Below, one piece after another: positions 7,198 through 57,932 of a stretch of DNA of 64,000 nt. The stretch is from Myrmaecium sp. VS I D KN 1 (lineage: Eukaryota; Ascomycota; Dothideomycetes; Valsariales; Valsariaceae), in contig JADQAV010000001.1 of NCBI GenBank assembly GCA_019775845.1, positions 124,001 to 188,000 on the forward strand. The letters run 5' to 3'. A program made the translations under genes and the position numbers. Under the pieces are notes generated by a model. It was not told the DNA's origin and made no database searches. It was given only the letters and a program-made list of their open reading frames with translations. Position 1 is the first letter of the stretch. Each line of letters begins with the position of its first letter.

Positions 7198-10075
7198 TTA
7201 GGTGAAAGTGCCCGAGGGGGGAGGCGGGCGTGGAATAGTCTCGTCTGTGCTCATACGCACAGCAGCTGGGCTGACGACACCCGTCCGCGCATCTATGCGA
7301 TGCGGGTCCGATACGTTGCCTTCCGGTATATCTGCCATGGCAGATTCAGGATCAGGCTCCGATGAGCGCGGCCTTCCGAAGAATCTGTTTCGATGACTGG
7401 GGCGGTGGCGAATTTCAGAGCCTTCGGCAGAGGTAACGCTTAGATGGTCACCGTGGGTGTCGGCAAGTGAAGAGGACCTTCCAGTTTCGTGTGATCTCCG
7501 CGCAGACTGGCCTTGAGACCGTGACGGAGAAGTGATTCTGATGGCAAGCTTCGCACGGTCACGCTCACGGTCTTCATATACGTCGCCAGTCATATCCATG
7601 GCAGCGACGTCCTTCATGCCCAAGGAAAAGTCCACCCGGCGGCCCATAGCAGCCAACGACTCCCCACGAGGACGACTGCCATGCCTGAGTATGGAAGGCG
7701 GACGATTCATAAGTCCATGATGGGACTGGTTCTCACCCATAGGTGCCACAAACGGGGGATCTCGAGATTCTGAGGCGTCGTTGTGCCAGCCCTGCGGGTT
7801 ATCAGGGTGCCCGCCATGGCCAGTCCCCGGAGTACCAATGTGCGGGACATTTTGCAAATAGACGGGGAAGGATTCCTTTTGACCAGGGAACCGCATGCGG
7901 GGTCCTTCGATTCCGACTTCTTGCATCGTCACCATCAAAGCACAGATGAACTTGTTCCTGCGCTGGAGGCGGAGCAATTCATTCTGCCAGTTCGACTTGT
8001 AGAAGAAGATGACATTTAGCGTGATCGAATGCGCCTCTGTGACAGCGCGCAATTCGGTAAGAATGTTGGCCTGATATTCCCGTTTTTCGGCCGTCACAAA
8101 CTCCAACAGCCTGGTCCGGAGTGCTTCGATCTGTTCAAGCGTAGTCCCGAACTTAATGACCACCGGGACAGCTTCGGCAAGGCCTCCGGATCTTCGTTGG
8201 TTGAGAATAAACAGGGTGTTGAGATAACTGTTGGGTGCTTGGACGACATGCCCCTCCATCTTCTTGAACTCAGTGTAAAGGAGTGCGATTTCCTTCACGA
8301 AGTAATCATCACCTAGACCAGCGCTGCCGGTATTGCCGTAGATGCTCACGCGGTCTCCAACATCAAAAGGATGTTTGACGAAAACGAAGACGATGGACTG
8401 GAGGAATTCCGTGGCTGTGGTGGAGAACAACCAGGACAGCGCGAGCAAGGAAGAGCCGAGGGAAGTCAGCACACCGGATGCGGATGTCGATATCAGCGAG
8501 ATCAGCACCACAATGGTGACGACCAAGACCATGAACATAAGGACGTTGTCAAGCTTCCGAATCACCGAATCAAGGTCTTTGAGCGAAGCGGTGATAGACT
8601 TTCTCTCGCGTCCGATCTCAACGCATACGGCTTCAAGCTCCTCCATCGATATGTCACCGTTCATATCTTTGTCAAACATCTGGAAAGCGGCGTCGGCTTC
8701 ATCCTGATTTTCGAAAGCATCTTTCAGGTCTTCTTCATGCACCGTCTCGGTATCCTCACGTCCGAAGGTACGATATAGTCGCCTGGCAAGCACCTGGCTT
8801 CCCCTAGTCGTACTCAACAAGGTTAGAACGACCTGGTGTGGATGTGTACTTCTCGCAATTTGACGGCCCGTGAAGTCGCCAGCGATCTTTCCCGCAATAT
8901 CGCCAACCTTGTTTAGGGCGTCTTTTGTTTGTCTCTGGGCTTCCTTGACCAAAAATCCTGGCGTTAGAGCACCTGAGGTCTGTCCTTGCTTTTCTTCAAA
9001 TTCGTGATCATCCATGGCAATCTTCTTCCTGGAGAATGTGTAGAGCTTTACCAAGCTTTGGATCTGGAATTTGTTGAGCTCGATGCGGTCCTGGTACGTA
9101 CGCAGATGGAAACTCATGGCAATTAACTGAATGATCACCTTCTCCACCAGGTTAAGGATCATCCCCACGAAAATGGCGACAAGAACTTTGTTCATGGTCC
9201 TCTCCCACTCCCTAGTGGCAGTGTTGCCATCCAGGTGCTTAGACTTCATGATGGGTAGGAAAGAGACCTCGATGGCAAGCCACCAGAAGAACAGAGTCGC
9301 CGGCAGCTCAAGCTGCTTGCCCATATCTCTCCACTTCTTGCTGTTGTTTGTGAATAAGCTAGCAATTACACCAATTGGGTACGGCAGGCACTTTGCGAGG
9401 ATCTGTATGGTATGAAATTAGCAAGTGTCGCGGTGTAACTGAGAATGAAAAGGGATTTATTACCCTTCCGGCCCATAATGTGAGCCACACTATCTCCAAC
9501 CAAATGCAGAACCACACCAATCGAACACCGCCGACCGTGGACCGCTTGTATTTCAGTGCCCCAACAAGTAGAGGGATAAGAATGACCAGAACCAATGGAA
9601 CGATGTACGTCAGATAACGCACGAGAAAGCTTGAGGTATGAAGCTTCTTGAAAAATTTCGCCGCGCTGGTAGACGGGTTATCCGGAGGTTTGTAGATGGC
9701 AGCGCTCATGTGCAGTGGGTTGGTCGCCGCATCGAATTCATCCACAGGCTCTTCCAATCTCGACCTTGACCTGTACAGCGACCTTTCGGCATCATGGTCC
9801 TCAGATTCCGCCTGCTTGGATACCTGACGTTCGATTTGAAGCACTTCAAGGTCGTCTTGCAAGCGAGAAGCTTGTTCCCTTGACTGAGAAGGCGACCTGA
9901 TTGACATATTCGCGTCAGATCCGGGATAATCTGTGTCGAGACCTAGATGACTTCGGTTCCGGGCCTGGTGGGCTTGGTGGTGGTGTTGTTGCTGGTCCTC
10001 ACCGACGACGGTTCCGTCATCGGATGACTGATGTTGAGGAGCATTGTGACGAGGCTCATCTGCCGGCGTAGACAT
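7198..10075 (-). CDS. EF-hand MscS-family mechanosensitive ion channel
   Basis: Exons 10075-9464 and 9402-7198 give 938 aa. An N-terminal polar, Gln/His-rich cytosolic tail is followed by about four hydrophobic helices, from [18 protein letters not shown] to [18 protein letters not shown]. An EF-hand loop ([12 protein letters not shown], about residue 449) comes next, then the MscS pore helices and the signature [13 protein letters not shown] basic disordered tail ends the protein. This layout matches the fungal and plant MSL channels such as fission yeast Msy1/Msy2, which sit in the ER or cell-cortex membranes and control Ca2+ during hypo-osmotic shock; location and role here are inferred. 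The ATG at 10075 (MSTPADEP) opens the protein. An in-frame upstream extension lacks a convincing start. Confidence 0.9.
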
Positions 10076-16824: not shown

Positions 16825-18274
16825 ATGTTCTCCTCCTTCTCTTTCAGCATTCCCCAGTTCTCTCTCCGATCTGATACCCGAGACGCCATCAAACTTCCCT
16901 CTGTCGAGATCCACGACGTAGAGGAGTCGGCGGAGAAGAGAGCGCGAACACTGAAGCACCTCGTCCGCGCGAATCATGTCAACCATTCGATCATATACCA
17001 CAGCCTCCAAAAGCATAATCAAGTTCCACATGTAAGCGCCGTGCTAGGTCTATAAAATGCAGGCGTGCCCGATCTGACTTCCTAGGTCCTGGGCTCAGCC
17101 TATCTACTCGGAGCTACATCCGAGCACCTGACGAAGATTTACGAGAACGAAGTCGAGAAGCTCGAACCATGGCACGACGCCCCCGGCGAGATTTCAAAAG
17201 AGGACTGGAGGGAGTTCATAGGGAAAAGAGAGTGCGTTGTCCTGCCTAAGCATGGCGTCGTATAGGCTGACGGGGCCAAAGGTATCAGCGCGCATTCATC
17301 GACTTCTTCGAGGACCAGCTCGTCCTCTATAAGTATGACTGGAAAAGACTACTACACGACTATCTCTTCGAAGGGCCGGAACCCTTGGTGAACAATCTAT
17401 TCGCAGGACGTACGTACGCTAAACCCAAGCAGCGGCCAATGAATTAGGGCTAACAGGGGAACAGTCGGACATCCGTTAATACATCTCGCATATGCTTATG
17501 AGTTGTCCTCGCATACCATAGGAATGGAAGCGTTGGCCCTGTCAACATGCTTCCAAGATACCCTCCATAAATACGTAGACGAGCCTTCCTACACCAGGCC
17601 TTCGAGCTTCACGTCCACGTCTGTATTGGAGCTCCTGAACAGGATCGCGGAGGATCGGACCTTGGACAAGCTGTTCGACCAACCCGGGGTCAACAATGTG
17701 GACACACTCCTTGGATCGCATGAAGACATAATACTGGACTACTGGAACGCTTGGGATCTGGATCAGCCGGTGAAGCAATTCGAGGAGTCTCAGAAAGCAG
17801 CTGTCGCATTGCTGGTAGCGACGCATGAAGCTGGGAAGAAGCATGACTTCTTCCTGGAGCATCTCCTCACGACATCGCATGCCGTTCGCGTATTGCTTCC
17901 CTTGATCCCGCCGAAATTCCATCTATCACTGGTCCGGCAGTGGTGGCTATTCACGATCATCATTTACCTCTCGCAGCTACGCCCTGCGATTCGCGTGGAA
18001 GAGATTCAGGGTTATGACGTGCAAGGGAGAGATTGGAAGTATGTCGTGCACCAAGCCTTCGAATCGGCTCATAGCTTGGACTCGCACTATGTGAAAGGTT
18101 CGTGCAATTGGCTCAAGACCATGTCAAAACATGCATACTGACCATATTCAAGCTCTTCGCGCGATCAAGGAAGCTGCCAGCACCTGGGGTGACGAGGATT
18201 TGTTCTATCTTAAAGCCGCGCTTAAGTTTGCAGACGAGTTCGAAGGATGGGGTGGGTTTGGTGCTTCGCAGTGA
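16825..18274 (+). CDS. Questin-oxidase-like (AflY/DUF4243) protein
   Basis: Exons 16825-17031, 17086-17231, 17282-17409, 17465-18097 and 18153-18274 give 411 aa. Family features include HVNHSIIYHS near residue 55, GSAYLLGATSEHLTKIYE, the central LGHPLIHLAYAYEL, and a C-terminal FLEHLLTTSHAVRVLLP helix rich in histidines. The family contains Aspergillus AflY (aflatoxin) and GedK-type questin oxidases, Baeyer-Villiger-like enzymes that open anthraquinone rings without flavin. Many members, including this one, occur outside any polyketide cluster; no PKS or tailoring enzyme lies nearby, so the substrate is unknown. The ATG at 16825 is used; the in-frame GTG at 16807 is not. Confidence 0.82.
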
Positions 18275-20058
18275 ATTCAGCGGTGATGTCAGGCACTTCA
18301 AAGGGCACAATATGTGACGCAGCGGACCGCAACGAGCCGGGAGGGGGTAGAGGACGGGTCACACATTGTCTGTGCTACTGTCATGATGCGCGGGCGATGA
18401 TGACGGGATGAAGAGTGGTGAGAGTGACAGGGTGTGCCTTGAACGTTGTTTCAGATCCCGCTGGAAATTACGAAAGCCCAGCGAAAACCTGCCCATCACC
18501 ACGTTGCTGCAGCTTATGTAATTGTGCCGTCTGGTTTTAGTGTGGCAGCCAAAGACGGGACGACCCTTGAGATTACTTCCCTGGCTTCTTCTCTGAATCC
18601 CATGTGCCATGCGTGGAGCACCATCAGTAAGCCGGCCGGCCATGCAGCATCAGGATGCCCTCAGAGGAAATGGAACCTAACGAATGGAGGGAGAGTAACA
18701 TTCCGCGTTGGGCGGGACGTTATCGTCAGTTTGCAGTATAATATCGTATGTAATAGAGTAATTAATCTGCATGTGGAGTGATATTCCATGGTAAAACTAT
18801 CCGTTCCGTTGCGGAGGCCTTGTTTACTAGGTGGATGTTCGTTTCCTTTCCGAGCAGAACAATAGAGATGCTACCTAGTTGAATGGGAGGACAGTGCGCG
18901 CATCGATACATATTCACGGGTGCCCAACCTACCTTATCCTTATATATACTATGCAGTATTATACTTAGGTACCTAAACACCGCTCGAACCAAGGGGCCAG
19001 GACCTTATAGGGACGTGAAATGTTCCCGCGGTCGCTACGTCCGTCTTGCTCCGTATCCTCCGTAATGCTGCTCTACACTCCGGTAGGTACCTAGAAGCCT
19101 GGAGTTAACTCGTCGGCGCGTCGCGCACATGTTAACGCCGGCGACCCTTCGCTAGGTCGGATGTTATCTTGGGGGACGGGCCCCGGCCCTGTCCTTTCAG
19201 CCACCCCGCCTCCCCTCCATTATCGCCGCTCCGCGACGGCATTTCGGATGATCCGGTTTCCGTCGTCATTTCCAGTCCGCCCGAGAAGCTTGTCCTGCTC
19301 CCCGCCCCGCGCTCCATCGCACAGCGTTCCGACCGTGCGCTCCTCCATATGGGTCCCGGATCGGTCATGATCGCGGGGAACCGTGCGTGCGTGCGCGAAT
19401 GAATACGGCATGTCAGGTAATGTTACGTGCAGTAGGTACTCCTGATAGGAGGGAGGATGGACTGGCGTTGGGTTCGACCTCAGTGAGCGTGCCCTGAGGT
19501 GCGCGGCTATAGCTACTAGTAGCAGTGCTGATTTTAAGGTTCACACGTGTAGGTAAGGTAGTTACCTACACCAACAACATGAAGTTGTGACTAGCCGTCG
19601 GTATCGTACGTGTCAGTACAGATGGCCAGTACGTGTACAGTACAGTACTAGACATGCTGTGCGGTATGGAACTGTACCGTTACCGGCGTTCCTGCCCTGT
19701 GCCCGCCCGCACCGGCCTTTGATTTCCAATTGCACCCGATGATGTCAGGTCCCCCGGTCGCGCTTGTCCACTGACTGGGTCGCTTCTCGCCGAACTCCTC
19801 GCCCGGGACAAGCTCAAAAGCCAGATTGCCCGCCGTGCGCTTCTTCCATCATTATCGTCAACCCGCTCGCCTATTCCCCACTCTTCCCAGCCTTCCCTCA
19901 TCCTAAAACCCCATTCCCCTCGCTCCTTCGCCCTTCCTATCCCGCCTGCTCGGTTTGCCGCCTTGTTCCGACCGTCTTACCACCGCCTCCTCCACTTCTG
20001 CTGCGACTCTGCTCTCGTCGTCGTCTAACCCGGGAGTTCCGGTCGCATCCTCCCCACC
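18275..20058. other. 1.8-kb intergenic region upstream of the AspRS-DUF2156 fusion
   Basis: No supported gene. AT-rich DNA around 18.9-18.97 kb is followed by a GTAC-rich stretch at 19.55-19.65 kb. The last 200 bases are strongly C/T-rich and probably form the core promoter and 5' UTR of the fusion gene. Minus-strand frames here have no recognisable domain. Confidence 0.5.
19550..19652. repeat. GTAC/CAGTAC-rich low-complexity segment
   Basis: The words GTAC, CAGTAC and TACGTG recur, including a short run of CAGTACAGTAC form, next to a TACCTACAC stretch. A smaller segment of the same character lies near 11.92-11.94 kb. Function is unknown; it may be a decayed short repeat. Confidence 0.45.
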
Positions 20059-23000
20059 ATGTCCCTGAAGAGAGCTCTCCACAAGCTCAAGCCTGGAAGT
20101 TCCAGTGCACCTGCAAGCGATGACGAGCACAATCCGCGCAGCCCTACCGGCGACGCAGCCAGCGGTGCTCTTTCTCCCACTGGCAGCTCGCCTCGCAACA
20201 GCGGTACCTTTGTCCGCTCCAGTGGCACCTTCGGTCGCACCAGTGGTACCTTCAATGTCCACCGCACGAGCGGAACCTTCGGTCCTCTCAGTCACCGCGG
20301 TACCAGCCACAGCCCTATCAGGGCCGTGAAAGAGAAGCTGGGCCTCGGCGACGAGTCTTCCTCCTCCGACGAGCGACCGCTTAACCGCGACGGTGAGAAG
20401 ATGAGCAAGAATCAGGTAAAGAAACACGAACGACAAATCCAGGAAGAACAACGCAAGAGAGAGATTGCCGAACGCGAGGAGGAGCTCCGGAGACAGCGGA
20501 GAGAGGCAGATGAACGCGCTCAGAGAGAGGAGCCCCCGGAGGTCAGAGCCAAGTATGGCGTATACCCGGTCAACAAGTACGCCGGTGAATGGAAACATGA
20601 AGCTCGCACGAACATCCTGGAGCTTTCATCAAAAGACATTGGGAAGGAGGTCTTGTTTAGGGCTAGGATACATCACTTGCGCAAGATGAGCTCGCACCTG
20701 GTCTTCTTTGTTTTCCGCCAGCAGACGACCACCATACAGGGCGTTTTATCCGAGCATGGCCACATCTCGCACCACATGGTCTACTGGGCGGAGCATCTCG
20801 ACGTGGAAACGGTTGTTCTTGTCAGAGGTATTGTGCAAGAACCCAAGGCGAAGCAGGGCGAAATCATCGGGGCTACGGTTCATGACGTCGAAATCTCAGT
20901 GCATGAGCTCCATGTTGAAGGGAAAGTCACGGAACCCCTACCCTTCAATGTTTACGAGGCCGAAGTAACTAAGGAGGTTGTTCCTGATGAGAAAGGAGGA
21001 AACCATCGGACTATCATCTCCGACCGAACACGCTTGAACAACCGAGTCATCGACCTCAGGACCACAACGTCACAAGCGATATTTCGTGTCCAATCCGGTA
21101 TCTGCAACTTGTTCCGGAGTTACTTGGATAGCCAAGGTTTCATCGAGATCCATACCCCGAAGCTGCAGGGCGGTGCGACTGAGTCTGGTGCGAGCGTTTT
21201 CAAGATCGATTACTTTGGCCGTCCGGCTTTTCTAGCCCAAAGCCCCCAATTGGCAAAGCAAATGTGTATCTCTGCCGACTTTGGCCGGGTGTATGAAATC
21301 GGAGCTGTCTTCCGTGCTGAAAACAGCAACACCCACCGCCATCTTACCGAATATACTGGCCTTGATATCGAAATGGCTATCGACGAGCACTATCACGAAG
21401 TTTTACGCATGCTAGACAACACATTCAAGGCGATATTCAAGGGCATCTATGAGCGATACCGTCATGAGATCGACGTCGTCAAGGTTCATTTCCCTCATGA
21501 GGACCTGGTGTGGCTTGAGCAGACTCCCATCATCCCGTTTGCTGAGGCTGTCAGGATGTTGAACGAATCTGGATGGAGAGATGAAGATGGAAACCCTCTT
21601 CCTGAAAACGAAGACCTCGGTACGCGAGACGAGATACAACTGGGTAAGGTGATCAAGCAAAAGTTGGGTACGGATTACTACGTCCTGGATAAGTTCCCCA
21701 GGTCCGCCCGGCCATTCTATGCGATGCCGGACCCAAACAACCCGGATATCACGAACTCGTTTGATATCTTCCTCCGAGGTCAAGAGATTCTCAGTGGTGG
21801 TCAGCGTATACACGACGCGACCACCTTGTTGAAGAACCTCGAAGCTGCCAAAATAGACAGGAGTGTTATGGAAGATTACGTGCAGGGCTTCGAGTGGGGT
21901 GCACCTCCCCACGGAGGCGGTGGCATAGGCCTTGAGCGTATGCTTATGCTTCTGCTTAACCTTGGCGATATCCGACACGGATCCTTGTTCCCCAGAGATC
22001 CTAAGAGCTTGCCCGCTAAGCCTCCTCTCAAGCAACTCAGGCATCCGGAAGCCAGTACCATGCATCCCCCCTGGGAAGGTCAAGATCGCGCAGCAGCCCA
22101 AATCGACTATCAACCCTTGGAGAAGCTCATCGCCAATTACGGCGACGCATCGAATACGTCTTGGCTGGAGCCTCGCACAGAGATTTGGAGGGACGACCAA
22201 ACCGGTGCTGCTGTTGGCTATGTGCCTCAAGATGGATTCGCTATCACCGTTGGCAACCCTCTCTGCCACGAATCGCAATATCTCAGGACAATTGCCGGGT
22301 TTCTCAGGTATATCCGCAAAGAGCGTGGTCTTAAGCCTCTATGGCTTCTGGTGGGTCCTCCTGTCGAAGAGATCTTGGCTACCAAGTTCAACTGGCGGAC
22401 GTTCTCAGTGGTGTCTGAGCAGCGCCTAGATCCGTCAAACAATCCTGCCGCGCATGATAGCGAGATTCAGCGTAAGATTCGCCACGCACAGAAGGAAGGC
22501 GTCAAGATCCACGACATCCCCATCGGGACTAAGGTCCCAGAAGATATCAAGAAACGCATCGATGATCGCATCCAGGACTGGCTTTCCAATCGCAAAGGCA
22601 AACAGGTCCACCTCACGAACATTCGCCCCTGGCAAGACATGGAGCATCGACAATATCACTATGCGGTCGACAAAGACGGCAACATTTGCTGTCTCGTCGT
22701 CATGGCCCAGCTGTCGCCTGACCATGGCTGGCAGGTCAAGTACAGCCTGGACTTTCCTGGTGCCCCGTCTGGCTCCATCGAATGGATCGTGACGCACGCC
22801 CTAAAATTCGTTGCCGCTGCTGGTGCTACCAGCGTCACATTCGGCGGCGGAGCTAGCTCGAAATTCACACCGGGCCACAATTTGAAGAGCACCAAGGTCA
22901 AAGTGCTCAGCCGTACCTACCATGCCATCGCGAATGAGCTCAAGCTCACCAACAAGAGCGAGTTCCGAGAGAAGCTTGGCGCACAGGAAGACCCTGTGTA

Positions 23001-23076
23001 TGTCTGCTATCCTCCACACGGACTTGGACCGTTAGGCGTCAAGGCTATCATGAACTTCTTCGAGGATGACGACTGA
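20059..23076 (+). CDS. erdS: Aspartyl-tRNA synthetase fused to DUF2156 (ergosteryl-3beta-O-L-aspartate synthase type)
   Basis: One exon, 1005 aa. Residues 1-90 are a low-complexity lead with four SGTF repeats, then comes a charged coiled coil (about 115-165). An anticodon-binding OB-fold spans about 180-290 (HLRKMSSHLVFFVFRQQTTT). The class II AspRS core carries motif 2 (FRAENSNTHRHLTEYTGLD, about 417) and motif 3 (GGIGLERMLMLLLNLGDI, about 622). From about 680 to the end is a complete DUF2156 aminoacyl-tRNA transferase domain (LPLWLLVG-type strand, FGGGASSKFTPGHNLKS, FFEDDD terminus). Fungal ErdS enzymes of this exact architecture charge tRNA-Asp and pass aspartate to the 3beta-OH of ergosterol, making ergosteryl-aspartate. 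Core motifs of both halves look intact. A separate housekeeping AspRS gene would be expected elsewhere in the genome. Confidence 0.93.
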   Translation: MSLKRALHKLKPGSSSAPASDDEHNPRSPTGDAASGALSPTGSSPRNSGTFVRSSGTFGRTSGTFNVHRTSGTFGPLSHRGTSHSPIRAVKEKLGLGDESSSSDERPLNRDGEKMSKNQVKKHERQIQEEQRKREIAEREEELRRQRREADERAQREEPPEVRAKYGVYPVNKYAGEWKHEARTNILELSSKDIGKEVLFRARIHHLRKMSSHLVFFVFRQQTTTIQGVLSEHGHISHHMVYWAEHLDVETVVLVRGIVQEPKAKQGEIIGATVHDVEISVHELHVEGKVTEPLPFNVYEAEVTKEVVPDEKGGNHRTIISDRTRLNNRVIDLRTTTSQAIFRVQSGICNLFRSYLDSQGFIEIHTPKLQGGATESGASVFKIDYFGRPAFLAQSPQLAKQMCISADFGRVYEIGAVFRAENSNTHRHLTEYTGLDIEMAIDEHYHEVLRMLDNTFKAIFKGIYERYRHEIDVVKVHFPHEDLVWLEQTPIIPFAEAVRMLNESGWRDEDGNPLPENEDLGTRDEIQLGKVIKQKLGTDYYVLDKFPRSARPFYAMPDPNNPDITNSFDIFLRGQEILSGGQRIHDATTLLKNLEAAKIDRSVMEDYVQGFEWGAPPHGGGGIGLERMLMLLLNLGDIRHGSLFPRDPKSLPAKPPLKQLRHPEASTMHPPWEGQDRAAAQIDYQPLEKLIANYGDASNTSWLEPRTEIWRDDQTGAAVGYVPQDGFAITVGNPLCHESQYLRTIAGFLRYIRKERGLKPLWLLVGPPVEEILATKFNWRTFSVVSEQRLDPSNNPAAHDSEIQRKIRHAQKEGVKIHDIPIGTKVPEDIKKRIDDRIQDWLSNRKGKQVHLTNIRPWQDMEHRQYHYAVDKDGNICCLVVMAQLSPDHGWQVKYSLDFPGAPSGSIEWIVTHALKFVAAAGATSVTFGGGASSKFTPGHNLKSTKVKVLSRTYHAIANELKLTNKSEFREKLGAQEDPVYVCYPPHGLGPLGVKAIMNFFEDDD

Positions 23077-24745: not shown

Positions 24746-25730
24746 ATGCGTCTGCTGCAGTTTGCCCTCGCAGGCGTGTTCGCCGCCGTCGCCTTGGCCC
24801 AGACCCTTGCGATCACTGACGCTCCGTCGACCGTGGAAGTTGGGCAGACCTACCAGGTCACCTATCAGGGAGGCAGTGACCAGGTGAGCTTCTACGTACC
24901 AACTTCAGGCCTGCATTCGTCCACCCACTGACTTGATCCTCTGATACAGCCGGTCACCTTTATCCTCCGCAAAGGCAACACTGCCGATCTCGAGACCATC
25001 GGAACGATCGGTACGCAGACAGCAAGACCCACGAACATTTAGTCATCGTTGTTGCTGACCAGCCACAGGCACTGCCACCGACGGAGTCTTCTCGTGGACC
25101 GTCTCATCTGATCTAACCGACGGCTCGGATTACGCGCTCGAAATCCAGCAAGGCAGCTCGACCAACTATTGGGGCTCCATCTCTGTGACGGGCTCAACTG
25201 CTGTAAGCTCTGCTGCTTCTACCGCATCCGCGTCGACGTCAGCGTCAGCTTCAGTATCGACATCGGAATCAGCATCGGCATCAGCATCTGCATCTGCTAT
25301 CGCTGCGTCCACATCTGCCCAGACCGTGTCCGCATCCTCTCAAGCAGCCTCTCAATCCTCTCAGTCAACTTTCTCCACCGAGTCGAGCCAGCCTACGGCA
25401 TCGGCGCAGTCCACAGCGCAGTCCACTGACTCAACCCAGTCGGCTCAGTCTACTGAGACAGCCTCGCAAAGCTTGACAAGCGCCGCAGCGTCGTCCTCGG
25501 CGGCGGCATCGCAGTCTTCGCAGTCCGCCTCGTCGTCCGCCCAAACTACCAGCGGATCTTCCACTCGTGCTGCGACGAGTGGTGCTCAGTCCACTCAGTC
25601 ATCGTCGTCGCCCACGGCGAGTGCATCCGCCAGTTCGGTCATGGCAAGTGAAGGAAAGTCGGATGGCCTGTCTTCAAGCCCGTTCGCGCTGATTTCCTGC
25701 ATCTTCGTTGCTCTGGCTTATTTGAACTAA
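24746..25730 (+). CDS. GPI-anchored Ser-rich cell-surface protein, Kre9/Knh1 N-terminal domain
   Basis: Exons 24746-24883, 24950-25010 and 25069-25730 give 286 aa. A signal peptide (MRLLQFALAGVFAAVALAQ) is followed by a compact beta-sandwich of about 100 residues (EVGQTYQVTYQGG, VTFILRKGN, GVFSWTVSSDLTDGSDYALEI), the Kre9/KNH N-terminal Ser-Thr-rich GPI family. A 130-residue Ser/Ala/Thr/Gln-rich stalk ends in a hydrophobic tail (SPFALISCIFVALAYLN) that looks like a GPI-attachment signal. The product is probably O-glycosylated and bound to the plasma membrane or cell wall; relatives affect beta-1,6-glucan, but no enzymatic role is shown. The second gene 1.8 kb downstream is a paralogue. Confidence 0.85.
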
Positions 25731-27559: not shown

Positions 27560-28430
27560 ATGAAGTTCACCACCGTCGCTCTCGCCCTCTCCGCCGCTGC
27601 GGTCGTCTCCTGCGCGGAGAACCCGTTCATCATCCCGTCTGGCGGGTTGAACTTCACCGCCGGTGAGACGAGCGAGATCCGCTGGTCGCCCACCACCAGC
27701 GGCACCGTCTCCATCCTCCTCCGCAGCGGCGCCGCCGATGACCTGGACAGCGGCAGCACCATCGTCGGTACGTCTTCCGATCCTCTCCTATGCCTGTCCT
27801 ACTGCGGTCATACTGATTTTCCTTTCTTCCACAGCCAACACCACCAACGACGGTTCGTACGAGTGGGCCGTCCCCTCCGACATCGTCCGCGGCAGCGACT
27901 ACGCCCTCGAGATCATCTCCGACTCCAACCCGGACGAGGTCAACTACACCCCCCAGTTCGTCATCGACTCCGACGTCGTCGCCGCCGCTGCCACCACCTC
28001 CTCCTCTACCTCCAGCGCCGCCGCCACCTCCACCTCGAGCGCCAGCTCTTCCTCTTCCTCCTCCACCTCCTCTTCCGCAAGCGCTAGCGCGACCGCATCC
28101 GCTTCCGCCTCCGCCTCCGCCTCCTCCTCCATGACCGCCACCACCCTGAGCTCCAGCATCGTCACCAAGTCCAGCTCCGCCACGGCCTCCGCTTCTGCCT
28201 CCGCCAGCGCGTCCGGCTCCGCCTCCAGCAGCGCCTCTGTCGCCGCTTCCTCCAGCGCCGCCGCCTCTTCTTCCTCTTCCTCCGCCTCTTCTTCTTCCGC
28301 CGCCGCCTCCGCCTCCTCGACCTCCTCCGCGACCACCGTGCCCCAGGCCAACGGTGCCGTCCGGATGAACGCGTTCGGTCCCGCTGCGGCCGTGCTCGCT
28401 GGCTTCGTCGGCGTCGCGTGGGCGTTGTAG
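27560..28430 (+). CDS. GPI-anchored Ser-rich cell-surface protein, Kre9/Knh1-type paralogue
   Basis: Exons 27560-27767 and 27835-28430 give 267 aa. It has a signal peptide (MKFTTVALALSAAAVVSCA), then the same Kre9/KNH-type domain as the gene at 24746 (TAGETSEIRWSPTTSGTVSI, YEWAVPSDIVRGSDYALEI). A very long Ser/Ala/Thr stalk follows, then a hydrophobic GPI-signal tail (FGPAAAVLAGFVGVAWAL). The conserved stretch GSDYALEI and an intron at the matching place (splitting a glycine- or alanine-type codon at the end of the first half-domain) show that the two genes arose by duplication. Third codon positions are almost all C, which suggests high expression. The product is probably an abundant wall or membrane glycoprotein of unknown activity. 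Confidence 0.85.
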
Positions 28431-52986: not shown

Positions 52987-55900
52987 TCAATCTTCAGGGG
53001 TCTCACTCCCGCTGCTGCCAAAATAGCTCTGGTCGATCTTGAGGATCCATTCGATCTTCTCCGTCTCCCGCCTCGCTCGGAACAGCCAGGAATTGCCCTT
53101 TCCCCAAATGGCCCACACGCACCCGGACAGGTTGCCCGTGGTCGACGTCTCGGCCAGCAGACGCGCTACCTGCGGCTCGTGGTCCACGCGCGCATTGCTC
53201 AGGTTGATCACGCAGAGCTCGTCGCCTTCGGGCACGCTGTAGATGTGCAGGTACGGCCGGCGAAGCTCGACGAACCGGCGAGCCCAGCGGGTGTTGTTCT
53301 GGTCCGGCATGAGGAGGTAGCCGGACTTCATGAGCACCGGGTTCTTCGGCACATGTCGTACGGTTGCGATCAGCGCGGGCGCCGTTGTCGGGTCGCCTGC
53401 TGGCGCTTGGGCGAAGGCCGCACCGGAAGGTGGAGGCTCGAGGTTGCGTGAGCTCAGAAGGATGTCCGGAACTGACGGCGTTCGCGTCTGCCAGAGCTTG
53501 AGCACACGATTGAGGAGTTCGGTTTGATTGGGCGTGTAGGTGCTGCTGTTGCCATTTGGTGTAGGCGAGGAACCGTTGGTCCGCGGCAGGATGAACGCAC
53601 GAGAGCTCAGCACGCTGCGTGCCGTTTCGATTTCTGCCATGCGGTACCGACGCTTGCGCGTGTTGATGAAGTCCTTCACCAGGGAGACGCCGCGGGGTGT
53701 CCACCCGCTGAGTAGCTCTTCCCCCTTTATGTAGTCCTCCCTGGTGTCCATGCGCCAGAGATCCACGACGCGCTTCGCGGAGGTTGGACGGATGGCCACG
53801 GCGAAAATTCCGACGGTGGAGTGGATGATCCTGGTTGCATTCCAGAGAGTAGCAAACATCGAGGTTTGTCGGATGTAGGAACGCCCCCGGATTTGCATGG
53901 CCAAATCGATGGAGAAGCCCATTGGTTTCGCCAGTTTCGGGCACGCGACATCCCACTTCAAAGTCACCTGCACCCGATATTTGTCCGGAGTCGTGCGATC
54001 GAGCATCAGAGAGTTGTGTATGCTCGAGTCCCATTGCGCCATTAGCGTCACGTTTCTGGTGCCGTCTGCGTTGCTTTTCACGACGGGAGATGTTACCAAG
54101 CCTAATGGAACCTCGAGCTCTGGACTATCGGAAGTGGGATTGTTGCCAGAAGCGTCGAGCAGACGCACTTGGCCGACGCGTAACCCTGTCACATCCTGCC
54201 AGCGTAAGGTGTCCCCAGACGTATGTGTAAGATTGATGACGATCCTCCGTTGAAGTCCCTGGTGAAGCTGGAATGCACCAGCATCCATGGCATTTGTCTG
54301 GATCACCTCCACAGGTTGATATGTGCCGTCTTCCGAGATCTCATGGATTTGAATCCGCGTGAAGATGTCATGGCTCTCTTCGGTGTAAAACTCGGACTCG
54401 GCGATACGAGCGTTGTGACGCTTCTGCTTCGGTCGGGGTGCGGAATCGCGCATGTCGTCCCAGCTGAGGAGCTTATCAAGGTGCATGGAGGTGACCTTGG
54501 CAAAGATGGACACGCGAAGAAACGATGTCCGCGGACTGGAGAGAGGCAGTCCCATGCTGTGGACGCTCTCGAAACGAATCGGACCCTCATCAAAGTCTCT
54601 GATCATTTGAGTTGTCGTGGCTCCACCCTCTTCGGATATCCCAGGGATGAACAGCTGCGCATGAACATCGGTTCCTTCACGCTCCGGAAAGCCCACAAAG
54701 TCATGCATGACCACGTTGAACTTCAGGGTCGAGGAAGGTGCTTCCGCCGACGAAGGTTCCAGGGAGAGACGAATGATACCGATGACCCCGGAAGTGTAAG
54801 GAGAGATCACCTCGAGGCCGAAGTCCTGAACCCGGTATTCGAACACGGCAGCGAGGGGCACATCGGCGTCCCCAATACGCGAATACTCAGGAAGGCAGGG
54901 CTCAGAGAACGGGTTCTCTACGCAGAAGTGCTGAAGGTACTCAGGCCTATTCAGATACTGGTGCATTTGGCGCATGAGCCTCACGCGGGCGCGGAGCTTC
55001 TGCAACGACCAGAGATGGACCACGTTGTTCTTGAAATCAACAACTCGGACCCCAACGCACGGCTTTGGCGTCGCGTCGAGATCTGGGTCGTCTTCTCCAG
55101 GGATGCCATTCAAGACCAGATCGTAGGAAGAAGCAAATGAATGCCCAGTGTCAACGATGCAGAACTGAAACACGACGTTCTTGTCCATCTGCTGGCTCAT
55201 GACCTGTGCTTCCTTCAGTGTGGCAGCGTTCTGAAGAATAGTCTCCGCCATGGCAACGTATTTGCGTTGTCTCCAGTGCGCGATAACTGAACGGGCCAGT
55301 GCGACATGCCGAGGGTCCGGATCACCGTTATGACCGTTACTCTGAAGCTGCTGCGGACGCTGAAGAACTTGGAGTTGGCGTTCATACTCGTCTTTCTGGT
55401 CTTGCAGCTGCTTTTGCATTTCCTCCTTGAGCTGACGTAGATTCTCCTCCATCTGGGCCTTCTCCGCCCTGATCTCCTCTATCTCCACGTTCTGCTCCTC
55501 CGCGGTTTGCAATTTCTCTTGATATTCGGACTTCTGCTTCTCCAGCTGGCCTTGCAGTTCCTCCCTCACTAACCGCAAACGCTGGTCTTCTTCACCTAGT
55601 TGCGGTGTCGAAGGAACGGTCAGGGAAGTGTCCAGGGAGAAATTGTCTATCGTTCCAGTGGAGGCGTACTTCTCTCGGAAAGGAAATGTGCTCACTGACT
55701 CCAAATCGTCCTCACCATCCACAAGGCGACTGTCCGGTCTGCCCTTGCGAACAGCACGAATTCTTTGCAGATCATCGAAAAGCACGTCTAACTCGTCGTC
55801 CGTGAGGTTGGATATCTTCTGATCAGGCCCTAGTATGGCGGTGACAGCCTCTCTGCGGGCGAATGACCAGTCGGAATCTCGGCTGTTCTTATGGAAGGGA

Positions 55901-57932
55901 GCGGGTGATCCTGCCCGTGGGCTGTCTGAGTCGAAATCAGATTCAGTCTTGCTGAGGCTACTCATTGTTCGCTCGTGGTTGTTCGAACGAGGCGAAGGAG
56001 AGCCGAGCTGGCTGACAGTAACGGAGTGTCGCAGCAAACTACTCTGTTCAGCACGCTCGGCTCGAGCCTCCTGAGGGTTATTGAAGCGGAAGATGTGGAA
56101 GTCGCCCAATATGATTCTGTATCCGCTCCGTAGTCGCTTCGGTTTCTCGATGCGAATACCGTTGACCATGACCCCTGCGTTCTCCTTCGGGACTACCGTG
56201 ACTGTGCCATCAACGTTTTCGAACGTGCAATGCTCCTGCAAAATCTTTGACCCATTCAACCGAATCTCAGCCGTTGTGGTAGTATCGACATTGCCCACCG
56301 TTGTCGTCCCAGGCTTTAAATTGTACACTAGACACTCTGCAAGCAATGGGTCATCGCTAAGGTTGACCAAATGAGGCATCTTCTTCGGCGTCGATAATCC
56401 GACGAATCCTTTCTCAATGCTGATGCCCAACTCCTCTAAAGCAGCCTCACGCTCTTTGTGTATTGTCTCGGTCTTTTGAAGCTTCTCTTCCCACGTTTGA
56501 TTGATTTCTTTATAGAGTTTCTCCGATTGGTTCAGTTGCTCGACGATCTCGGCCTTTGAGACCTTCTTGACGGTACCGTCCGGCTGAGTGATGGAAACCA
56601 GCTGTTTCTCGAGCGGCGTGTCTGGCGCATACTGTTCGTCTACGGGCACTCCACCAGGTGCTCCTGCCCCGCCGCTGCCAGCAACCGCACTGCCACCGCC
56701 AAGTTTAGCTCTCAACTGCGCCAGCTCCTCCTTCAGCTCTCTTATCATGCGAGCATTTGGATCCTCATTGACCACGGCATGGTTCCTTATACGCTTGGCA
56801 GAGTCGGCATACCGCAGCGTCGACAGCGTCTCTTCAAAGTTGATATCGGCGGGTGAGATGGCGGCTATCATGGCCGTTTGGCTGTTACCGCCCAGGGAAT
56901 CTTTCAGCAGCCACGTAAGGATGGAGTCGCGGTAGGGCACCATGGCACCCTTCTTTCCTTTCCCGGAAGACAAATCGGCCAATGCTGCGATGACACGCCC
57001 CAGAGTAGAAAGAGACCTGTTGATCTCAGCGCCTTCCTTCAACCGCGCGCCTGTTGCTCCTGTCGATGTGGCCCTTTCTGAACCTGCCAGATCGACAAGG
57101 CTGATTTTGGCAACTTTTTCGGAGTCCATGCTCGTCTCATCATCGTGGCGCTTTTGGCTCAGGGTCAACGTGAAGACCGCGTGGGATCTACTGGACGTCT
57201 CGTTCATGTTCGTCGCAGCAACAGTACGCGCTTTGTTACCCTCGTCCATCAGGTTCTCAATCTCTCCGAAGGAGCGGACCACCAGTTTCGCCAGATCTTC
57301 CACGTAGGGGCCGGTGGAGGGGTGCTCGCGGACCTTGAGGTTGCCTTTCGTTTTCGGGTTGAGCAGATCTCTGACACGCTCGTTATAGATTTCCAGGTAG
57401 GACACCTCCACTGTGCACGTCAAGTTTTTGTCCTGCTGTATCGCGGCGTCGATCCGCTCGAACATGTTCCTGCAGATCTTCGGGATGATGCCCGTCTCCT
57501 CGCCATAACCCATCATGGAATACGATTTGCCGGAGCCGGTCTGGCCGTAGGCGAAAATGCAGTTGTTGAAGCCGAGGAAAGCGTTATCCAGCAGCGGCTT
57601 GCCCAAGTCGTTGAAGAGGTCATCCTGACCGGCATAGTGGGGGTCGTTGCGGTCGAAGGACCAGTATGACTTGTCGAAGTTGAACGTCTTCGAGCCTTCG
57701 AGGGCGGCCTTTGCGGACTTGGACTTTGGGTCAATATTCTTCGGTGGGGTGAGGATGGTTTGGGTGTCTTTCATCCGGATGATGCATTGCGCGTTCCGGT
57801 CCTTTTCTGCGACGAGTCAGATGCCGTCCGTCCGGAAGAGGAGCACGAAAAAGCTGGCGGGACGATACCTCTGTTGTTGAACGGCCTCACCCTCACCACC
57901 ACCTTGATGTTTCCTCCGCCGGCCGAAGCCAT
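52987..57932 (-). CDS. uncA: Kinesin-3 motor protein (Unc104/KIF1A type, UncA)
   Basis: Exons 57932-57869 and 57806-52987 give 1627 aa. The motor domain (about 5-370) starts MASAGGGNIKVVVRVRPFNN and holds the P-loop GQTGSGKS (about 109), NETSSRSHAVF (switch I) and VDLAGSER (switch II). A neck coiled coil is followed by an FHA domain (about 515-605; EIRLNGSKILQEHCTF), a second coiled coil (about 760-840), long KIF1/DUF3694-type beta-rich regions, and a C-terminal PH domain (about 1510-1615; MKSGYLLMPDQNNTRWARRF). This is the kinesin-3 vesicle motor that moves early endosomes toward microtubule plus ends; Aspergillus UncA prefers a modified microtubule subset. The gene is divergent from TRM5. 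Confidence 0.95.

Follow-up and report, generated by a model that had tools for sequence, protein, structure and literature searches.

An intact ErdS-type fusion of AspRS and DUF2156 in Myrmaecium sp. VS I D KN 1, and the conserved segments of its N-terminal lead

A 64,000-nucleotide stretch of the genome of the Dothideomycete Myrmaecium sp. VS I D KN 1 (GenBank assembly GCA_019775845.1, contig JADQAV010000001.1, positions 124,001 to 188,000 of the forward strand; hereafter the window) carries an intact, sound and ordinary gene for a fusion of an aspartyl-tRNA synthetase (AspRS) with a DUF2156 aminoacyl transferase. It is a gene of a kind already known, common in its group, and its product is very probably an orthologue of ErdS, the ergosteryl-3beta-O-L-aspartate synthase, because of its architecture, its end-to-end similarity to proteins of this type, its kept active-site residues and the separate cytosolic-type AspRS of the same genome. 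ErdS was reportedly described by Yakobov et al. in PNAS in 2020. Excerpts of the published accounts state that ErdS charges tRNA-Asp and hands the aspartate to ergosterol (PMC9437257), that the attachment is to the 3beta-hydroxyl of the sterol (PMC12186260), that ErdS and ErgS make up a subfamily of lipid-modifying transferases (PMC10449517), that the erdS gene of Aspergillus fumigatus is AFUA_1G02570 (PMC11619415) and that an AspRS fused to DUF2156 was reported in Aspergillus niger in 2014 (PMC4301749). The gene would place this Dothideomycete-type genome among the fungi expected to produce aspartylated ergosterol.

The fusion gene and its two catalytic halves

The gene occupies positions 20059-23076 of the forward strand as a single uninterrupted frame of 1005 residues from ATG to stop. 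The stop-to-stop frame opens at 20029 and its first ATG is the one at 20059, in the context CACCATG; this start matches the relatives, many of which open with MSLKKAL or MSSLKKAL. The frame is not due to chance, since its product is 63-85% identical to 61 aligned relatives. The following features were delimited, all coordinates being those of the window.

20059..23076, +, ErdS-type gene, 1005 residues: N-terminal lead, AspRS and DUF2156 aminoacyl transferase (frame, Pfam, alignments)
20059..20094, +, residues 1-12, MSLKRALHKLKP: basic, amphipathic and conserved; a candidate membrane anchor (comparison of sets)
20200..20280, +, residues 48-74: four SGTF copies, instances of SPRxSG(T/I)F, a motif restricted to a lineage (repeat search, motif counts)
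20308..20340, +, residues 84-94, HSPIRAVKEKL: a further short stretch conserved in the lead (alignment, model)
20407..20529, +, residues 117-157: long charged helix ahead of the OB-fold (predicted structure)
20650..20913, +, residues 198-285: OB-fold domain (Pfam)
21022..21999, +, residues 322-647: class II AspRS catalytic core (Pfam, alignments, fold search)
22105..23073, +, residues 683-1005 by structure, 698-984 by Pfam: DUF2156 / LPG_synthase_C transferase (Pfam, model, fold search)

The sequence-only reading had claimed a complete class II AspRS and a complete DUF2156 domain in one frame, and both the 1005-codon frame and the Pfam domains confirm this. More specifically, the OB-fold PF01336 was matched at residues 198-285 (31.3 bits, cut-off 27) and PF00152, the class II core of the Asp, Lys and Asn synthetases, at residues 322-647 (249.3 bits). 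The core contains the AspRS active-site motifs QSPQ (residues 394-397), FRAENSNTHRH (418-428) and GIGLER (622-627). All three read as in yeast AspRS and are almost invariant among the aligned relatives. Ahead of the core, in the charged helix, Q119 is identical in at least 99.5% of 238 aligned sequences, an alignment that leaves aside the 3 of 241 proteins shorter than 880 residues. The fusion also scored 440.6 bits with TIGR00458, a prokaryotic NCBIfam model with a cut-off of 368.4. The name that NCBIfam gives to this core, non-discriminating AspRS, was rejected: the same model also tops the stand-alone AspRS exon of the genome, and a non-discriminating activity is unnecessary because the genome has two asparaginyl-tRNA synthetase (AsnRS) genes (L003 and L004).

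The transferase half was matched by PF09924 (LPG_synthase_C, DUF2156) at residues 698-984, over positions 14-298 of the 298-position profile. It is complete and strongly constrained, with 66 positions identical in at least 99.5% of the 238 sequences; R845, K846, D860 and H863 are examples of its invariant residues. Its predicted structure has, by a fold search, an MprF-like fold, which is common to MprF/A-PGS and to Sbb17 and Sba18, two peptide synthases that depend on aminoacyl-tRNA. The PDB entries 9w9e, 9w9f and 9w9g were absent among the 50 best matches of either fold search, an absence without weight.

Assignment as ErdS and the synthetases of the genome

These same three entries are the best sequence matches of the protein in the PDB, where they are labelled only as "Aspartate--tRNA ligase, cytoplasmic"; 9w9f spans residues 84-1003 with 1208 bits. 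Named Aspergillus proteins, those of A. felis among them, share 97% identity with its transferase part and one further protein shares 99%; the match to Aspergillus leads us to take 9w9f as a probable Aspergillus ErdS. It shares QSPQ and FRAENSNTHRH with the window protein and reads GVGLER for the third motif. Over about 900 residues, the window protein shares 56% identity with the A. nidulans fusion and 58% with another relative; with the stand-alone AspRS encoded in the same genome it shares less (41% for exon 2 and 51% for exon 3). By pairwise identity it lies nearer the solved Aspergillus-like fusion than stand-alone AspRS. Two sets of relatives were compared, the best 120 of 1054 (hereafter Dothideomycete-type; three named hits or neighbours that were looked up belong to the Dothideomycetes) and the best 120 of 658 (Aspergillus/Penicillium). 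PF00152 and PF09924 are both present in every one of the best 120 of the 1054 relatives of the transferase part, that part being 71-85% identical, and one relative (P0073) is already named ergosteryl-3beta-O-L-aspartate synthase in one source. From these comparisons the fusion reads as an old paralogue kept across classes, and the earlier identification of an ErdS-type fusion is supported by the architecture, the end-to-end similarity, the kept residues and the separate AspRS.

By analogy with the family, the AspRS half would activate aspartate with ATP and then charge tRNA-Asp, after which the charged 3' end of the tRNA would shift to the C-terminal DUF2156 half; this half would move the aspartyl group onto the 3beta-hydroxyl of ergosterol, and the tRNA would be released.

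Several characterised systems resemble the window protein in part. ErdS, which is not known from Saccharomyces cerevisiae, has its AspRS ahead of DUF2156 in a single chain, as here, with similarity from end to end to 9w9f. ErgS, the ergosteryl-3beta-O-glycine synthase, is likewise a sterol-directed DUF2156-type transferase (as seen in excerpts of PMC10449517). It relies on an independent glycyl-tRNA synthetase, unlike the window protein, whose DUF2156 domain is fused to AspRS and not free-standing, and this identity was rejected. LysX, the bifunctional lysyl-phosphatidylglycerol synthetase and lysyl-tRNA synthetase (LysRS), also joins a synthetase and an aminoacyl-lipid synthase in one chain, but is lysine-specific and has its synthetase at the opposite end; a LysX-like identity was rejected as no LysRS C-terminal to a lipid synthase was present and NF002821 gave 79.2 bits against a cut-off of 742. 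MprF and A-PGS differ: in the window protein Pfam finds the domains of an AspRS and none of a membrane flippase. Lastly, the stand-alone cytosolic AspRS of yeast (1eov) and of this genome share the AspRS core with the fusion; that of this genome, unlike the fusion, has no DUF2156 match and begins, by eye, with MADQAPANEAAG.

The fold common to MprF/A-PGS, which use phosphatidylglycerol, and to Sbb17 and Sba18 would also suit a DUF2156 transferase whose aspartate goes to a different acceptor, for instance a glycerolipid or some sterol other than ergosterol. We consider this most improbable, given the end-to-end similarity to the Aspergillus-type protein and an identity of just 11-15% to the MprF and A-PGS chains.

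A search of the genome (25.66 Mb in 66 contigs) with the PF00152 profile gave 11 matches: two LysRS (L001 and L005), the two AsnRS, the fusion itself on contig C1, two fragments of a bacterial-type AspRS (L006, the one scanned with NCBIfam, and L008), a stand-alone archaeal/eukaryotic-type AspRS (G000:C64:769594-770639) split over two pieces, its short first exon recognised by eye, an AsnRS-like fusion on contig C9 and one weak match on contig C53. The search for a second, stand-alone cytosolic AspRS suggested by the sequence-only reading thus yielded the eukaryotic-type gene on C64, in addition to the bacterial-type one, and the lack of any other AspRS gene, which that reading had named as a refutation, is not the case. 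With these two enzymes already in the genome and the transferase half so strongly constrained, the idea that the fusion is a second AspRS mainly for translation, with an inert or regulatory DUF2156 half, is most unlikely, even though the core motifs are kept and the TIGR00458 score exceeds its cut-off.

No second DUF2156 was found in the whole genome, within the limits set by introns and gaps: PF09924 matched the fusion only, and the transferase half used as a query retrieved only itself. As there is a single DUF2156 match, the genome gives no sign of the glycine enzyme ErgS, that is, of a second DUF2156 enzyme for the glycine form of ergosterol.

The assignment of the fusion as ErdS has some points weighing against it. 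Orthology rests on end-to-end similarity of sequence, and aspartate charging, its transfer and ergosterol as the acceptor are presumed from the family. The PF09924 score is modest (38.5 bits, cut-off 27.5), though the profile is covered nearly whole. In the predicted structure the active-site loops of the AspRS have low confidence (predicted template-modelling score 0.51); this site is modelled poorly because the alignment behind the model is shallow and made of very similar sequences. A search of the genome with PF10340, which we take to be the ErdH family, did not pin down the hydrolase ErdH: the two matches (61 and 36.6 bits), both on other contigs (candidates G000:C57:460535 and G000:C10:1080014), score higher with Abhydrolase_3 (143.9 and 86.1 bits). 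Of the aminoacylated-sterol pathway that the earlier proposal ascribed to the window, the window holds only the synthase.

The N-terminal lead

Residues 1-86 have no confident structure in the AlphaFold model, as would be expected of a disordered lead, though this does not prove an anchor, and residues 1-214 alone gave nothing against the PDB at an E value of 1e-10. Three short elements nevertheless stand out in the lead. The second conserved segment, HSPIRAVKEKL, includes P86, invariant in 62 sequences; the other two are the basic segment at the extreme N terminus and the SGTF copies.

A pattern of a basic pair with A/V and L/F/I/V could be anchored within the first 16 residues in 98 of the 121 Dothideomycete-type proteins and in 115 of the 120 from Aspergillus/Penicillium, while the unanchored proteins (23 of 121 and 5 of 120) include several plainly truncated gene models. 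Since the pattern demands a polar or basic pair, A/V and L/F/I/V, it accounts in part for the conservation at these four positions, and independent evidence comes from the flanking positions only. The place just before the pattern is L in 94% of the Dothideomycete-type and I in 99% of the Aspergillus/Penicillium proteins, and offset +5 is K in 80% and 97%, respectively. The hydrophobic place at offset +6, which is L in 78% of the first set, is weaker in the second (I 43%, A 43%) and weighs against conservation of the segment; past about residue 12 the two sets diverge. The nine-residue segment is basic and amphipathic, with a mean moment of 0.70 in both sets against 0.37 when shuffled. A common permutation across the sequences reached the observed moment in 58 of 2000 and 20 of 2000 cases, a moderate result, and the moment of the window protein itself (residues 2-12) is 0.49, below the mean of 0.56 for its set. 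By eye, the segment is wanting in the stand-alone AspRS. Residues 1-12 are a candidate membrane anchor, one that would keep the enzyme on the membrane where the sterol lies, and the segment is the transferable point of this analysis, as it bears on the way in which an enzyme that works with tRNA gains access to a sterol in a membrane.

The four SGTF copies lie at residues 48-51, 55-58, 62-65 and 71-74, above a 21-base tandem repeat of 2.9 copies (20193-20253). SG(T/I/V/S/M)F occurs in 72 of the 121 Dothideomycete-type proteins and in 1 of the 120 from Aspergillus/Penicillium, whose leads carry an SPRRSIL-like segment instead (100 of 120, against 0 of 121). The 108 delimited leads, from which 13 of the 121 proteins without a recognisable lead were left out, contain 136 copies, against a mean of 1.8 and a largest value of 7 in 500 shuffles; the bodies of those proteins contain none. 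An R stands two places ahead of the motif in 124 of the 136 copies, giving the consensus SPRxSG(T/I)FxR. Among the 108 leads the window protein alone has four exact SGTF copies, the highest such count, and two other leads have five looser copies. The motif thus marks a lineage of roughly class rank, with a copy number that varies. The suggestion that the SGTF lead may be lineage-specific holds for a group of this rank, the motif recurring across the Dothideomycete-type set and not being peculiar to the Myrmaecium genome.

Taken together, we tentatively propose, as a possibility short of even, that the lead is a conserved targeting module, in which some 12 residues of basic and amphipathic character, kept in two fungal groups, would hold the enzyme at sterol-bearing membranes and the variable number of SPRxSG(T/I)FxR copies, as putative phosphorylation or docking sites, would tune it in Dothideomycete-type fungi. 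Being short, basic, amphipathic and located at the extreme N terminus, the segment could also be a mitochondrial presequence, which would make ErdS dual-localised and not peripherally membrane-anchored; acidic residues are scarce in it (14 across 98 nine-residue segments from the Dothideomycete-type proteins, 0 across 115 from the others). This we judge rather unlikely: the Dothideomycete-type segments are rich in lysine over arginine (333 K to 28 R, compared with 253 to 135 in the second set), acidic residues are common within about 20 residues, and the separate bacterial-type AspRS suits mitochondria.

Neighbouring genes and other observations

Among the 17 neighbouring frames scanned (of 57 listed of at least 180 residues, many of them antisense shadows, the gene itself excluded), no sterol or lipid cluster was seen, and 4 could be assigned to no family. 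The families found were an MscS channel, a questin oxidase-like protein, a TauD/GBBH-like protein, an NXF-type RNA export factor, a mitochondrial carrier, a DRMBL nuclease, an MFS protein, TRM5/TYW2 and others. The general-control element TGASTCA occurs 3 times in the window, against 9.7 expected; none of these lies within 2 kb of the gene, and the 5 kb surrounding the stand-alone AspRS contain no copy. Nothing is concluded from these counts.

The AsnRS-like fusion on contig C9, outside the window (L016:2186-6943), is a 1586-residue open frame with a carnitine acyltransferase (138.6 bits), an asparaginase_2 domain (230.8 bits) and a class II core resembling that of AsnRS (86.2 bits), together with a HIT-like stretch recognised by eye; many relatives have a Pfam HIT domain. 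Scoring of 7990 candidates gave 215 relatives, of which the best 120 were examined. These comprise very many fishes (si:ch211-256m1.8; about 37-40% identity where full length), Lingula and a scorpion, and two named fungi, Talaromyces rugulosus (49%) and Amylocystis lapponica (39%); some further relatives are 46-60% identical. Their names in the sources are mostly "uncharacterized" or "isoaspartyl peptidase/L-asparaginase", and a literature search for the architecture found no paper. Overall, this is a little-studied, patchy animal-fungus enzyme with a synthetase-derived domain.

Within the window, the reverse strand encodes the MscS-type mechanosensitive channel beta-domain (7198-9417; 31.8 bits, with EF-hand matches slightly below their cut-offs) and a 1609-residue open frame (52987-57816) that reads by eye as a kinesin-3 motor, with parts resembling FHA and PH domains. 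On the forward strand lie the questin oxidase-like protein (17503-18141; 155 bits, profile positions 115-335 of 340) and, near each other, two Ser/Ala-rich secreted-looking proteins (25059-25730 and 27651-28430). The first of these has no Pfam match and is similar by eye to the second, which contains a Kre9/KNH domain (39.7 bits).
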